NCBI GenBank assembly: GCA_019801415.1
Contig: JAHVJD010000001.1
Location: 248,001-312,000 of the forward strand
Length of the DNA: 64,000 nt
Reading direction: 5' to 3'
From: Nocardioides marinus
GTDB lineage: Bacteria; Pseudomonadota; Alphaproteobacteria; Rhodobacterales; Rhodobacteraceae
Translations under genes and position numbers: made by a program
Shown here: positions 15,711-38,189 of the stretch, piece after piece
Numbering within the stretch: position 1 is the stretch's first letter
Layout of the letters: every line of letters begins with the position of its first letter
Notes under the pieces: generated by a model
Databases searched by the model: none
Seen by the model: the letters and a program-made list of their open reading frames with translations, nothing else
Told to the model about the DNA's origin: nothing

Positions 15711-15784
15711 GCGGGTATGATGTAATGGTAGCCTGTCAGCTTCCCAAGCTGAACGCGCGGGTTCGATTCCCGCTACCCGCTCCA
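15711..15784 (+). tRNA. tRNA-Gly (anticodon CCC)
   Basis: A 74-nt cloverleaf. The acceptor stem GCGGGTA pairs with TACCCGC, the anticodon stem TCAGC with GCTGA around the loop TTCCCAA, and the T arm is GCGGG-TTCGATT-CCCGC. The 3' end is TCCA, so CCA is encoded. The anticodon CCC is at 15743-15745. A T-rich stretch follows. No integrase or duplicated 3' end is seen nearby, so there is no sign of use as an integration site. Confidence 0.97.
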
Positions 15785-32677: not shown

Positions 32678-33388
32678 ATGACAACGCCCTTCGACGAAGA
32701 ACCCCACCGCCGCCCCGGACTGTTTTCAAGGCTGCGCGCCTCTTTCTTTACCGGCATCGTGGTGATTGCCCCGGTTGGCCTGACAATCTGGCTTCTGTGG
32801 TCCGTCATGGGGTGGATCGACAGCGTGGTGCTGCCGCTGGTGCCGCATACGTTTCGTCCTGAACAATACATCGGGATCAACCTGCGCGGCGTCGGGCTGA
32901 TCATCTTCCTGTTGTTTACGGTCATCGTCGGCTGGATCGCCAAGGGCATCATCGGCCGGTCGATGATCAGCTTTGCCGAAAGCCTCGTGGACCGGATGCC
33001 GGTGGTGCGTACCGTCTACTCGGGCATCAAGCAGATCTCCGAAACCGTGTTCGCCCAATCCGAGCGCAGCTTTGAAAAGGCCTGCCTGGTACAATACCCG
33101 CGCAAGGGCATCTGGGCGATCGGCTTCATCTCCACCACGGCCAAGGGCGAGATTGCAAACCGTGCGGAAACCAGCGGCAAGCTGATGAGCGTCTTCCTTC
33201 CCACGACACCGAACCCGACCTCGGGCTTTCTGCTGTTCGTTCCCGAGGAAGACGTGATCGAGTTGGACATGTCGGTCGAGGATTCCGCGAAACTGGTGAT
33301 TTCCGCGGGCCTCGTCTACCCCAACCCCAAAGATCCCAGCCAACCGCTGACAGCGGACAGCGGCCGGGGCGCGCGAAAGAGCGCCTAA
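32678..33388 (+). CDS. DUF502 family inner-membrane protein
   Basis: 236 residues. Two membrane helices (FFTGIVVIAPVGLTIWLLW and a second around GLIIFLLFTVIVGWIA) are followed by SFAESLVDRMPVVRTVYSGIKQISETVF and a soluble beta domain with FLPTTPNPTSGFLLFVPEEDV. These are DUF502 signatures; the function is not established. ATG 32678 is used. An in-frame TTG at 32651 would add nine residues, and neither ribosome site is strong. The stop codon overlaps the stop of the convergent patatin gene by four bases. Confidence 0.88.
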   Translation: MTTPFDEEPHRRPGLFSRLRASFFTGIVVIAPVGLTIWLLWSVMGWIDSVVLPLVPHTFRPEQYIGINLRGVGLIIFLLFTVIVGWIAKGIIGRSMISFAESLVDRMPVVRTVYSGIKQISETVFAQSERSFEKACLVQYPRKGIWAIGFISTTAKGEIANRAETSGKLMSVFLPTTPNPTSGFLLFVPEEDVIELDMSVEDSAKLVISAGLVYPNPKDPSQPLTADSGRGARKSA

Positions 33389-34413
33389 CTGAACATCTCC
33401 GGCAGATCGACCGAGGACCGCTCCCCCAGGTTGCCCCAGTCGCGCTCCAGGAACTTGTCAGCGGCGTCGCGCCCTGCCTGTTTCAACCGCGCCAGGATCT
33501 GCGGCACCGGCACCAGCTTGGTGGTCACGGACAACTGAGTCATCAACGCATCGTCGGAAATCATGTGGACCCGGACCGCCTTCATCCGCCCCGGCTCCAG
33601 CGTGCCATCCGCCAGCAGCCGCTGCACGAAGTTGATCGCCCGCAGTTCGCGCAACAGCGAAGAATTGAAGCTGATCTCGTTCACCCGGTTTCGTATCTGT
33701 TGCGGCGTCTTGGGGATTTCATCACGTTCCAGCGGATTGATGTTCACGATCACCACGTCGCCGGGCAGGTTTTCGCGAAATAAAGGGAACAACGCGGGAT
33801 TTCCGGTGTAGCCACCGTCCCAATAGGCCTCGATCCGGCCCGTCCGGGGATCCTCGATTTCCACCGCTTGAAACAGATCGGGAAGACATGCCGAAGCCAG
33901 AATGGCGTCGGTCCCGAGCTCCTCCCCCTGGAACACCCGGATCTTTCCGGTCCGTACACAGGTCGCGCAGACAAACAGTTCCGGCCCCTCATCGGCACAG
34001 ACATTGGCAAAGTCGAAAGCTTCGACCACGTCGCGCAGCGGGTTGCGATAGAACGGGCCATAGTGGTACGGCGAGACGACCTGGCTCATCGTATCCATAG
34101 GCGAGAACGGCACCATCGCCTCCCAGGTGCTGGCCAAGGCCACGGCATCAAAGCGCGTCAGCCAATGGGCAAAACGCATATCGCCCACGGCGCCCATCTT
34201 GCGCCACAACCTGTCCAAGGCGGCCTTGGCACCTTCGCGCCCGCCCTGCACCATGCCCGACTTGAACGCGGCACCGTTCAGTGCGCCGGCAGAGGTGCCG
34301 GTGATCGCCGCCACCTCCAACCGCTCTTCTTCCAGCAGGCGGTCGAGAACGCCCCAGGTAAAGGCCCCATGGGCGCCGCCGCCCTGCAGGGCAAGATCAA
34401 TCCGTTTCACCAT
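33385..34413 (-). CDS. Patatin-like phospholipase
   Basis: 342 residues. The oxyanion loop LALQGGGAHGAF is followed by the nucleophile elbow GTSAG with Ser41 and the dyad aspartate Asp199 in YWDGGYTGNP. Patatins use a Ser-Asp dyad to cleave acyl esters of phospholipids. Some bacterial members act on PHB granules, and the gene lies 91 bp downstream of 3-hydroxybutyrate dehydrogenase on the same strand, a pairing common in PHB-storing Alphaproteobacteria. A role in PHB or lipid turnover is therefore plausible but inferred. No signal peptide, so it is probably cytosolic. Confidence 0.9.
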   Translation of the reverse strand: MVKRIDLALQGGGAHGAFTWGVLDRLLEEERLEVAAITGTSAGALNGAAFKSGMVQGGREGAKAALDRLWRKMGAVGDMRFAHWLTRFDAVALASTWEAMVPFSPMDTMSQVVSPYHYGPFYRNPLRDVVEAFDFANVCADEGPELFVCATCVRTGKIRVFQGEELGTDAILASACLPDLFQAVEIEDPRTGRIEAYWDGGYTGNPALFPLFRENLPGDVVIVNINPLERDEIPKTPQQIRNRVNEISFNSSLLRELRAINFVQRLLADGTLEPGRMKAVRVHMISDDALMTQLSVTTKLVPVPQILARLKQAGRDAADKFLERDWGNLGERSSVDLPEMFS

Positions 34414-34504
34414 CGCGTTTTCGCCCCTTTCGCCTGTGCCGCCTCAGAGCAGGCAGGAGGGGCAAGACAGCGCCGCCCCTCTCCCGCCTGCCGATCGCGC
34501 GCCC

Positions 34505-35278
34505 TTAGAGGGCGGTCCAGCCGCCGTCGACGCTGATCGTCGTGCCGGTGATCTGCGCTGCCGCGTCAGAACACAGGAACACGGCGGTCCCTCCCATCTG
34601 CTCGACAGTGGCGAATTCGCGACTGGGCTGGCGCTCCAGCATCACCTTCTTCACCACATCCTCGCGGCTCATGTTGTATTTTTCCATCGTGTCCGGGATC
34701 TGGGCCTCCACCAGAGGTGTCAGCACGTAGCCCGGGCAGATCGCGTTACATGTGATCGGCTCCTCCGCGGTTTCCAGCGCGACAGTCTTGGTCATGCCCA
34801 CGACCCCGTGCTTGGCCGCCACATAGGCCGATTTGTAGGGGGATGCCGTCAGGCCGTGGGCCGAGGCGATGTTGACGATCCGTCCCCAGCCTGCCGCCCG
34901 CATCTTCGGCAGCGCCGCCGCCATGGTGTGATAGGCCGACGACATATTGATCGCGATGATCGCGTCCCACTTTTCCTCGGGAAAACTCTCGATCGGGGCA
35001 ACATGCTGAATGCCCGCGTTGTTCACCAGGATGTCACAGGCCCCGGCCTGCTCAATCAGGGCGCGGCACTCGCTCCCCTTGGACATGTCGGCCTGAATGT
35101 AGCGGGCACCAACGCCGAATTCGGCCGCAAGTTGACTGGCAAGCTCATGATCCTCGGCACGATCCGTAAAGGAATTCAGCACCACATCGGCGCCAGCCCT
35201 GGCCAGTTCGCGCGCGATGCCCAACCCGATCCCGGAGTTCGACCCGGTGATAACGGCGGTTTTTCCTTTCAACGACAT
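34505..35278 (-). CDS. bdhA: D-3-hydroxybutyrate dehydrogenase
   Basis: 257 residues, short-chain dehydrogenase. NAD site TGSNSGIGLGIA, NNAG motif LVNNAGIQHVAPIE, catalytic SxnYxxxK as NIASAHGLTASPYKSAYVAAK. HVAPIESFPEEKWD and the C-terminal ISVDGGWTAL are specific to the 3-hydroxybutyrate dehydrogenase branch. It converts D-3-hydroxybutyrate and NAD to acetoacetate in PHB mobilisation. ATG 35278 (MSLKGKTAV) has GAGGGG upstream. The patatin gene follows on the same strand. The gap upstream holds a separate small RNA transcription unit that ends before the bdhA promoter region. Confidence 0.94.
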   Translation of the reverse strand: MSLKGKTAVITGSNSGIGLGIARELARAGADVVLNSFTDRAEDHELASQLAAEFGVGARYIQADMSKGSECRALIEQAGACDILVNNAGIQHVAPIESFPEEKWDAIIAINMSSAYHTMAAALPKMRAAGWGRIVNIASAHGLTASPYKSAYVAAKHGVVGMTKTVALETAEEPITCNAICPGYVLTPLVEAQIPDTMEKYNMSREDVVKKVMLERQPSREFATVEQMGGTAVFLCSDAAAQITGTTISVDGGWTAL

Positions 35279-35412
35279 TTGGCTATACCCCTCAGCTGTC
35301 GGTTTCTGGCCGCACTGTGCCATGCTGCAACTGCAAAATAAACGCGTAGGAGTACGGAAAGATCCACACGTTTTGCCGCGCGGACAGCCTAGGCAACCGG
35401 AGCCGTGTCACC

Positions 35413-35487
35413 AAAAAAAACGCCCGCGCGAGGCGGGCGTCAGTTATTGAGGCAGGTTTCATACAGGCAAGAAACCTATCGAGCAGT
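35413..35487 (-). ncRNA. Candidate ~75-nt trans-acting small RNA
   Basis: The minus strand has a strong sigma70-type promoter with a predicted start near 35487 (A). The transcript holds hairpin one (AGGTTTC/GAAACCT, perfect 7 bp, 35477-35471 with 35460-35454, 10-nt loop), a short single-stranded linker, and an intrinsic terminator. The terminator stem is ACGCCCGC/GCGGGCGT (35440-35433 with 35427-35420) followed by a T-run of seven. No ORF with a ribosome site lies inside it. This is a complete independent small RNA unit between bdhA and the yejA-like gene. An Hfq gene is present in this window. Confidence 0.7.
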
Positions 35488-35493
35488 GACCCC

Positions 35494-35522
35494 TTTATAA
35501 GCAATTTCCCAGTTTCATCCAA
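35494..35522 (-). promoter_or_regulatory. Sigma70-type promoter of the small RNA
   Basis: Minus strand: -35 TTGGAT (35522-35517), a spacer of exactly 17 bp, and -10 TATAAA (35499-35494). This is very close to consensus for a high-GC genome. Confidence 0.65.
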
Positions 35523-35602
35523 GCTAAAAGTTTGAAAAGACGGTGGAGCGCGCCTAGCGTGATCGCGCAGGAAAACAAGGGCCGTCGGGGATTGTAGGCA
35601 AA

Positions 35603-37420
35603 ATGAGAAAAGAAAATTTCCGGATTTTTCGGGCTGCATGGGCAGGAATCACCTTGGCTTTTACCGCCAATTTCGCCTTGGCAGAATCAGCTCATGGCAT
35701 AGCTATGTATGGGGACCCGGCTCTACCACCGGATTTTGTGTCCCTGCCCTATGCCACCCCCGACGCGCCCAAGGGCGGACGGGTTGTCTTTGGCAACACC
35801 GGTGGCTTCGACTCGTTGAACCCGTTTCAACTTAAAGGCACCGTCCCCTGGCAACTTCGCTACTGGAGCTATGAGAGCCTGATGGGTCGTTCCTGGGACG
35901 AACCCTTCTCCCTTTACGGGCTGCTGGCCGAATCGATTGAGGTTCCCGAGGATCGATCCTGGGTCGAATTCACCCTGCGGGAGGAAGCGCGATTCTCCGA
36001 CGGAAGCCCGGTTACCGTCGAAGACGTGATCTGGTCCTACGAGACCCTGGGAACCAAGGGGCACCCCCGCTATCGCGGTTTCTGGACCAAGGTCGAAAGC
36101 ATTGAACAGACCGGCCCGCGCAAACTCAGGATTGCCTTCAACACGCAGGATCGCGAGTTGGCGCTAATTGCCGGAATGCGACCGATCCTCAAGAAGGCCC
36201 AATGGGAGGGCAAGGATTTCGCCACCGACTCCGTCGACGGCGCGCCCATCGGGACCGGCGCCTACGTCGTGTCGGACTACGAAGCCGGGCGTTACGTCAC
36301 GCTGCGGCGCAACCCCGACTACTGGGGCGCCGATCTGCCGTTTCGCGCAGGAACACAGAACTTTGATGAAATGCGCATCGACTTTTTCGGCGATGAGACC
36401 GTCCTGTTCGAAGCCTTCAAGGCGGGTGAGCTGAGCGCGGTGCGCGAATTCAATGCCGACCGTTGGCAGGTCGCCTATGATTTCCCCGCCGCGACACGTG
36501 GCGATATCGTGAAGACCGAAATCCCTCATCAGCGACCCTCCGGAATGACCGGCCTGGTGATGAACACCCGCCGCGCGCCCCTTGACGATTGGCGCGTGCG
36601 CGAGGCGCTGTTGCTGGCGTTCAATTTCGAATACATCAACGGCACGATCACCGGCGGCAGCCAGCCCCGCATTCAGTCCTATTACTCGGGCTCGGTTCTG
36701 GGCATGCGCCCCGGCCCGGCAGAAGGTGCCGTACGCGAGCTGCTGGAACCCTTCGCCGACAACCTGCCTCCCGGCACACTGGAGGGCTATAGCCTGCCCG
36801 AAGGTGATAGCAGTGAACGAAACCGAAAGGATCTGCGGCGCGCAGCCAAGCTGCTGGCAGAGGCTGGCTGGACCGTGCAGGACGGCGTGCTGCGCAACGA
36901 CGATGGAACACCGCTGGAACTGACCGTTCTGATCCGCCAGGGTGACAGCGAGATGGACACGGTGATCGGTATCTATGGGCGCGCATTGGAGCGCCTCGGC
37001 ATATCGCTTAAGGTGGAGACCGTCGATAACGCCCAATTCGTCGAGCGCGAGACGAATTACGATTTTGACCTCACACGCTACCGCCGGGAACTGTCTCTCA
37101 GCCCGGGCAACGAACAGCGCTATTACTGGGGAAGCGAGGGGATTACCGAACCCGGCAGCCGCAACCTGATGGGCATGAACAGCCCGGCCGCCGAAGCGAT
37201 GATCGATGCGATGCTGACGGCCAAGGAGCCGGAGGATTTCGTTCACGCCGTACGCGCGCTGGACCGGGTGTTGACCGCTGGTCGCTACGTGATCCCCTTC
37301 TGGACCTACGACGTGGGCAGGATCGCGCATAAGAAAGAGCTGCGCTTTCCCGAGACACTGCCGATCTACGGCGACCGGACCGAATTCATGCCGCATGTCT
37401 GGTGGTATCAGCCAGAGTAA
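35603..37420 (+). CDS. Extracellular solute-binding protein family 5, YejA-like (oligopeptide ABC transporter)
   Basis: 605 residues. A signal peptide of about 27 residues (cleavage after NFALA) is followed by the type 5 binding-protein fold. Landmarks are HGIAMYGDPALPPDF, YATPDAPKGGRVVFGNTGGFDSLNP, LLAESIEVPEDRSWVEF and RFSDGSPVTVEDVIWSY. This start and layout match YejA-type periplasmic receptors for peptides such as microcin C. Normally yejBEF permease and ATPase genes are adjacent, but none is present here, so it is an orphan receptor that must share a transporter or act alone. The upstream gap holds the divergent small RNA promoter. Confidence 0.9.
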   Translation: MRKENFRIFRAAWAGITLAFTANFALAESAHGIAMYGDPALPPDFVSLPYATPDAPKGGRVVFGNTGGFDSLNPFQLKGTVPWQLRYWSYESLMGRSWDEPFSLYGLLAESIEVPEDRSWVEFTLREEARFSDGSPVTVEDVIWSYETLGTKGHPRYRGFWTKVESIEQTGPRKLRIAFNTQDRELALIAGMRPILKKAQWEGKDFATDSVDGAPIGTGAYVVSDYEAGRYVTLRRNPDYWGADLPFRAGTQNFDEMRIDFFGDETVLFEAFKAGELSAVREFNADRWQVAYDFPAATRGDIVKTEIPHQRPSGMTGLVMNTRRAPLDDWRVREALLLAFNFEYINGTITGGSQPRIQSYYSGSVLGMRPGPAEGAVRELLEPFADNLPPGTLEGYSLPEGDSSERNRKDLRRAAKLLAEAGWTVQDGVLRNDDGTPLELTVLIRQGDSEMDTVIGIYGRALERLGISLKVETVDNAQFVERETNYDFDLTRYRRELSLSPGNEQRYYWGSEGITEPGSRNLMGMNSPAAEAMIDAMLTAKEPEDFVHAVRALDRVLTAGRYVIPFWTYDVGRIAHKKELRFPETLPIYGDRTEFMPHVWWYQPE

Positions 37421-37955
37421 AGCACATGGTGTCGCCGCCACTGCCCCTGCAGGGGCAGATAGGGCGGCGACACCTCTTCTCTCCGGATTACGTCCCTAAC
37501 ACCCCCGCCCTTGCATTTTCGCAAAACGATCCTGTGCACATTCTGGCGTTTAAGCACCTCGAAACCGCTCCGAACGGCGGGTGAGATATGAGCGTTGATT
37601 TGCCCCTCGGGCACACCGCCCAACGGCCCAGGCAACATCCGACAACGTCAAACTGTCACCTTGGATAGCCCCCAACGCAGCGGTGCTTCGACACGCAGCC
37701 GGCGAACCGATCGGACGACAATGCGCTAGCCCCATCGCGCGCGGCCCGGAGCACCAGCTGCCGCCAAAGCACCGCAAACGAACCATCGCATCCAGCCATC
37801 TTTCGGCGTCCATCGGACTGTGAATTCGGCCGGGTGACCGGCGACTTTGAGGGCGGGCCACGCCGCTGCGCTTGACGCCCTGTTATCAGGTCGTCGAAAA
37901 AATGTTAGGATGGGCATCCAACCATCGTGAACCGTTTGTCAGGGAGTGCCCCCCA
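37421..37955 (+). other. 535-bp intergenic region with a long hairpin
   Basis: Apart from the hairpin at 37428-37474 and the promoter and ribosome site of the small gene at 37956, I see no gene here. Open frames exist on both strands but have no ribosome sites and unlikely composition. Confidence 0.5.
37428..37474 (+). terminator. Long composite hairpin after the yejA-like gene
   Basis: A 12-bp perfect outer stem (GGTGTCGCCGCC at 37428-37439 with GGCGGCGACACC at 37463-37474) encloses an 18-bp self-complementary palindrome (37441-37458). CTCTTCTCT follows but no continuous T-run, so it may terminate or protect the mRNA 3' end. Confidence 0.5.
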
Positions 37956-38189
37956 ATGCCTGTACAAGCAGCAGCTGCCAGCTGGATTGACAGGATGCCA
38001 CGCATCAAACAGCGCTTTCCACATTTGAAGGCCAAGAACGCCCCATCGCTATTGGATGACCGGGACAAATTCGTCGCCTATCTGGCCCGCACCCATCACC
38101 TCACGCTCACCGAGGCACAAGAAGAGGTCGATGACTTCCTCTATGTCGAAAGCCTGCTGCGCGAGTTGGACGGCCAGCCGCAACATTAG
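37956..38189 (+). CDS. Small hypothetical protein
   Basis: 77 residues, basic N-terminus and acidic helical C-terminus (LTEAQEEVDDFLYVESLLREL). No signal peptide, membrane segment or cysteine motif. GGGAG lies about eight bases before ATG 37956. It ends 29 bp before the convergent XRE regulator gene. The residue composition is that of a real small soluble helical protein, but I do not recognise the family. Confidence 0.55.
   Translation: MPVQAAAASWIDRMPRIKQRFPHLKAKNAPSLLDDRDKFVAYLARTHHLTLTEAQEEVDDFLYVESLLRELDGQPQH

Follow-up and report, generated by a model that had tools for sequence, protein, structure and literature searches.

The enterobacterial small RNA RybB has a 5' end that reads CACUGCU, and mmgR / suhB (RF00519), an alphaproteobacterial small RNA, has been linked to PHB granules. 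EcpR1 of Sinorhizobium meliloti is described, in the accessible sections of the report, as a conserved trans-acting small RNA that represses the cell-cycle mRNAs of dnaA and gcrA by base-pairing via a strongly conserved region; its variants measure 101-171 nt, pair through the loop motif UCCGCCGCAUCU and were reported to be Hfq-independent (PMC4414408). In Rhodobacteraceae, the orphan small RNA StsR of R. sphaeroides affects dcw (cell division) genes, according to the portions available of two papers (PMC8307010, PMC11354728).

The locus analysed here lies in a stretch of 64,000 nucleotides (the window) from a genome of ~3.9 Mb. It contains a gene for a small RNA that belongs to a single bacterial family, the Rhodobacteraceae in the GTDB sense. 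As in trans-acting base-pairing small RNAs generally, the gene has a promoter of its own and an intrinsic terminator, both of them conserved. Its likeness to RybB amounts to the seven letters CACUGCU shared by the two 5' ends. If the reading of its targets given below is right, the RNA would act like EcpR1 on cell-cycle mRNAs; EcpR1, however, is longer, and the RNA described here differs from it in sequence, structure and candidate targets. Membership in the EcpR1 family was rejected, the loop motif printed in the accessible part of that report being absent from the 40-nt core. A core that barely changes throughout a family whose members abound in sea and soil is likely to be part of a core circuit, and this near-frozen small RNA is without a covering Rfam family.

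A complete RNA unit on the minus strand

The original prediction had placed a minus-strand promoter, a transcription start at 35487, a 7-bp hairpin and a terminator between bdhA and the divergent yejA-like gene (Table 1). Direct reading of the letters and conservation both confirmed this arrangement. The -35 and -10 hexamers are separated by 17 bp, and the A at 35487 is the putative first nucleotide of the transcript. Promoter, hairpin and terminator are all conserved in relatives, as befits a complete, free-standing unit. The terminator, also recovered by a motif scan of positions 33000-38000, consists of the stem-loop ACGCCCGC-CTCGC-GCGGGCGT (35440-35420) and a run of eight T's (35420-35413), one more than the seven first counted. 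A stricter sigma-70 rule returned no promoter site in the same interval (shuffles: mean 1.0), and the four terminators counted there do not exceed the number in shuffled sequence (5.2); motif scans alone are thus insufficient proof of an RNA unit. The segment 35412-35487 folds at -25.7 kcal/mol, as compared to -15.45 (sd 2.6) for its shuffled versions (z -3.94), none of which was as stable (0 of 200).

Overlapping the -35 hexamer, the conserved element CAAACTTTTNNNTTGG is near-private to the small RNA. It was found in 43 of 61 family genomes, at 44 sites in all (the reversed control gave 10), and once in the window's own genome; 29 of the 30 sites falling in fetched loci stand upstream of the small RNA. 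A dyad operator, CAARCT-N3-AGYTTG, that could be drawn over the -35 region was dropped because relatives keep CAAACTTT and TTGG and not the second half-site.

Table 1. Positions of the small RNA gene, its parts and associated sequences (window coordinates except in the last line).
Feature	Position	Strand	Basis or remark
Small RNA gene	35413-35487	-	~75 nt; letters read directly, fold, covariance model R2
-35 hexamer TTGGAT	35517-35522	-	read directly; TTGG kept in relatives
-10 hexamer TATAAA	35494-35499	-	read directly; TATA kept in relatives
Promoter element CAAACTTTTNNNTTGG	35519-35534	-	conserved; overlaps -35 hexamer
5' single-stranded putative seed ACTGCTC	35481-35487	-	near-invariant across loci
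Hairpin AGGTTTC-TTGCCTGTAT-GAAACCT	35454-35477	-	7 pairs, fold; stem invariant
Putative linker seed CTGCCTCA	35448-35455	-	invariant; complement adjoins ccrM start in 5/8 genomes
Intrinsic terminator with eight T's	35413-35440	-	terminator scan; compensatory stem changes
bdhA, downstream neighbour	34505-35278	-	TIGR01963 above its cutoff
SBP_bac_5 ('yejA-like') gene, divergent	35603-37420	+	PF00496; conserved neighbour
24-nt 3'UTR block	near position 1000 of L285-L289 (G014, G013, G004, G019, G009)		

Distribution of the small RNA

A 131-base query had a match in all 37 genomes searched from the window's own genus (21) and own family (16); in 24 genomes of other families it gave two weak matches only. 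Searches at the family, order and class levels were performed with R2, a covariance model of the small RNA. Within the family, the model detected the RNA in 289 of the 295 genomes, representing 288 of 294 genera, and in 258 of 260 good assemblies. Four of the six genomes with no match are less than 90% complete and two are not. This frequency makes a chance origin of the unit untenable, and the conservation among relatives on which the original prediction had staked its claim is thereby found. All 195 genomes of the order sample carried the RNA, all being listed as the same family, as did 120 of 121 Paracoccus genomes and 17 of 17 genomes of a genus that we take to be Marivita. Among 385 class-wide genomes, R2 recovered five family members and four weak matches; the latter were rejected as copies, the terminator being all that they have in common. 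A search of a phage collection yielded no copy.

Most genomes had a single R2 match, and 6 of the 289 had two. The second matches of three of these (G250, G127, G263) are devoid of the core. In genome G329, a decayed second copy (L290, G329:C15:38105-38179) lies 1.8 kb from the intact one; it keeps CTTGCCTGTA of the loop and has lost the stem. In four Paracoccus records (L282, L283, H2, H4) the RNA maps to secondary replicons of 1.5-2.2 Mb.

Comparison with annotated and published RNAs

When the whole window was compared with Rfam 15, no small RNA family reached its gathering threshold, so that the description of the RNA as unannotated holds for Rfam. The only match at threshold was a tRNA gene at 15711-15781 (+). 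The best sub-threshold matches at the small RNA scored 22.9 and 22.5 bits. The second of these was to Hrs13 (RF02631), which has a similar layout of hairpin and terminator and gave the best Rfam E-value in a short scan; it was rejected with several pairs broken and a threshold of 52 bits. The family of mmgR / suhB, an alphaproteobacterial RNA of similar length that also ends in a terminator, was rejected at 16.7 bits against a threshold of 41.

The small RNA occupies positions 1,443,996-1,444,071 (minus strand) of a 3,188,524-base contig in a genome that is presumably that of R. sphaeroides 2.4.1. The positions given for SorY, SorX, PcrZ and RSs1624 of strain 2.4.1 in the accessible part of PMC6238624 differ, and these RNAs were rejected. 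StsR was rejected likewise, since the probe printed in the available text of PMC11354728 matches no fetched locus, the R. sphaeroides locus included. Intergenic 134 of P. denitrificans (PMC5107571) was initially favoured, the RNA being located on a second replicon in close relatives. It was rejected because the 1.73-Mb replicon of this species (1,730,091 bases) has no copy of the RNA; the assignment of Intergenic 134 to chromosome 2 is deduced from the numbering in the accessible part of the paper. Intergenic 60, a possible match, is not named in that paper among the two with shared context. Outside supplementary tables, no report in the literature could be tied to the RNA; coordinates of the R. 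pomeroyi trans-acting small RNAs are supplementary, and an earlier detection may be tabulated in supplements of this kind.

An invariant core

The 40-nt core is unchanged in 234 of 241 distinct loci collected. Since 108 of these had been fetched by the exact core, the other 133 were considered separately: the core is exact in 126 and has 1 to 12 differences in the remainder. Loci were gathered by BLAST, by model score and by typed core variants, with preference for the best-scoring ones and deliberate addition of the family's weakest; thus, the 241 loci are not an even sample. The 5' tail, both strands of the stem, the loop and the first bases of the linker are near-invariant, while variation is seen in the bases that follow in the linker, in the promoter spacer and in the flanks.

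The original prediction had anticipated compensatory changes in the first stem; none were seen in 11 distinct rows. As this stem never varies, it offers covariation evidence neither way. The terminator stem alone has changes on both sides (2 pairs, 4 cells, same 11 rows). The invariance of both stem strands and of the loop, with no covariation, would suit an RNA with a structural or protein-binding function and no antisense role, its hairpin being recognised by a protein. This is quite unlikely, however, given that invariance extends equally to the single-stranded tail and linker and that the RNA is complementary to several start regions and to a 3'UTR (see below).

The unit had also been said to contain no ORF. 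Short frames do exist: an AUG at the border between loop and stem opens MKPASIT (107 of 241 loci), MKPAS (45 of 241) and similar ones. An mRNA for a peptide of 5-7 residues (MKPAS...) would account for the recurrence of these two sequences; we regard this as extremely improbable. The frame runs for at least 12 codons in 70 of the 241 loci and the AUG is missing in 4, leaving a conserved peptide unsupported. Moreover, third codon positions vary no more than the others, which points to constraint at the RNA level.

Relation to the neighbouring genes

A link to PHB or 3-hydroxybutyrate had been proposed from the position of the gene next to bdhA. This gene lies downstream in 187 of 224 loci and was not found within about 1.6 kb in the other 37; the RNA thus persists without bdhA. 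Complementarity to the RNA is not in excess in bdhA leaders (120 of 193; mean z -0.23 to +0.03), and motif counts in these leaders fall inside the shuffled range. The proposed PHB link is therefore one of position and gains nothing from pairing. The same observations bear on the possibility that the sequence is a cis-acting leader or attenuator of bdhA ending at the terminator. The common orientation of the two in those 187 loci is what such an element would require, but the loci that keep the RNA with no bdhA detected, and the lack of excess pairing in bdhA leaders, make it very improbable.

The suggested connection to peptide uptake fared somewhat better. Of the 223 loci with sufficient sequence, 219 retain the divergent SBP_bac_5 gene, whose leaders (120 of 230) display a small excess of complementarity (mean z -0.25 to -0.67). 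The motif GAGCAG, complement of the invariant CUGCUC, occurs in 45 of 230 SBP_bac_5 leaders, against a shuffled mean of 5.5 and a maximum of 9, with the reservation that the rows are related and not independent; the longer CGAGCAG occurs in 8 of 230 (0.8 expected). These data could indicate a trans-acting small RNA devoted mainly to uptake, controlling SBP_bac_5 and other transporter mRNAs, in which case the cell-cycle leaders described below would be conserved for other reasons. We consider this unlikely, because the excess is limited to a fifth of the leaders, in related rows, and because the window's own Shine-Dalgarno complement at the yejA-like gene (AGGCAA, facing the loop) was discarded as not conserved (10 of 230 leaders, 14.5 expected).

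Candidate target mRNAs

Potential targets were sought in 8 genomes of 7 genera as complements of CUGCCUCA, the single-stranded piece that varies least, followed by ATG within 2-11 nt. The search returned 163 sites as compared to 13 for the reversed pattern, the sole control, which differs in context. Among the 149 of 163 sites examined (14 of 27 in genome G099), 76 correspond to ORFs that are 50 aa or longer or that are still open where the stretch ends, some of them doubtful or repeated. In this examined set, the complement adjoins the start of ccrM in 5 of the 8 genomes (4 of the 7 genera), that of a DapC-like aminotransferase gene (dapC) in 3 of 8 genomes, those of nrdJ (vitamin-B12-dependent ribonucleotide reductase) and ftsB (FtsB/DivIC, PF04977) in 2 of 8 each, and that of an SLT-domain gene in 2 genomes of one genus. 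The best family for the ccrM product is NF050803, at 646 bits, below the curated cutoff of 830.

In the ccrM leaders the octamer is constant, and the distance to the ATG (2-4 nt) and the neighbouring bases vary. Predicted duplexes between the linker and the five leaders gave z values of -3.9 to -6.1, these leaders having been chosen by the motif. Two unselected ccrM leaders from Parasedimentitalea gave -3.9 and -4.1, and both have GAGGCAG 4 nt before the ATG. Of 23 ccrM records from outside the family, seven supplied leaders, all of which lack this sequence. Examination of 24 of the 25 sites in R. sphaeroides and of all 10 in Paracoccus G848 revealed no TGAGGCAG-ATG site at ccrM. Together, these data make ccrM a plausible true target, at slightly short of an even chance.

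Leaders of the other candidates were less uniform. GAGGCAG is absent from four unselected Paracoccus ftsB leaders; the same four carry CGAGCAG, the complement of the other (5') seed, placed 3 nt ahead of the in-frame ATG in one leader and 15 nt ahead of it in the other three. Neither seed complement is present in one unselected Pseudorhodobacter SLT leader or in two nrdJ leaders from outside the family. Conservation of the leaders may instead reflect shared ancestry or ribosome binding.

In two Parasedimentitalea species (L473, L474), ccrM is annotated beside ribonuclease HII on plasmids of 91 and 111 kb. A plasmid is an unusual place for this cell-cycle gene.

Proposed mode of action

The presence of the RNA throughout the family, its near-invariant core amidst drifting flanks and its retention in loci with no bdhA suggest action in trans, and the molecule is probably a trans-acting base-pairing RNA. 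To the fuller and best-supported reading, that of an independent Rhodobacteraceae small RNA that pairs with ribosome-binding regions and lowers the translation of growth and cell-cycle mRNAs, we would assign an even chance. According to this model, the RNA would be transcribed from its own promoter and would pair through its invariant single-stranded parts, namely the 5' ACUGCUC, the loop UUGCCUGU and the linker CUGCCUCA. Pairing with ribosome-binding regions would presumably lower translation, the candidate sites touching the Shine-Dalgarno region. The leading targets would be ccrM first, then ftsB, nrdJ and dapC, and Hfq as well as an inducing signal could take part. Single-stranded seeds by themselves do not account for the invariance of the first stem. 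If pairing with ccrM and ftsB is true, it would give these bacteria a means of tying their CcrM-dependent cell cycle to a signal, a route open to direct testing in tractable hosts, among them R. sphaeroides, Ruegeria and Phaeobacter.

A complementary block in a Leisingera 3'UTR

Five Leisingera genomes, among the 21 genomes of the window's own genus, contain a 19-nt perfect complement of the RNA in the 3'UTR of one mRNA. The complement is on the coding strand and starts no more than 10 nt past the stop codon of a gene for a 104-aa protein. The start of this protein is signal-like, and no Pfam family matched it significantly. The block was not found in the window's own genome at the E-values searched. 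It may serve as a target or as a sponge, or else represent a sense fragment lying on the opposite strand. A broader and rather doubtful model would make the small RNA a family-wide antisense brake on the alphaproteobacterial cell cycle, coordinating DNA methylation (CcrM), division (FtsB), the supply of dNTPs (NrdJ) and the synthesis of wall precursors (DapC). Its seeds, CUGCCUCA or CUGCUC, would be interchangeable, and the RNA would be a counterpart of rhizobial EcpR1 with a separate evolutionary origin; in some Leisingera, it would be titrated by the 3'UTR complement or act on it. Across the five genomes the surrounding 24-nt block is identical, as against 6 shared positions in the following 48 nt and 74% identity in the 104-aa coding sequence.
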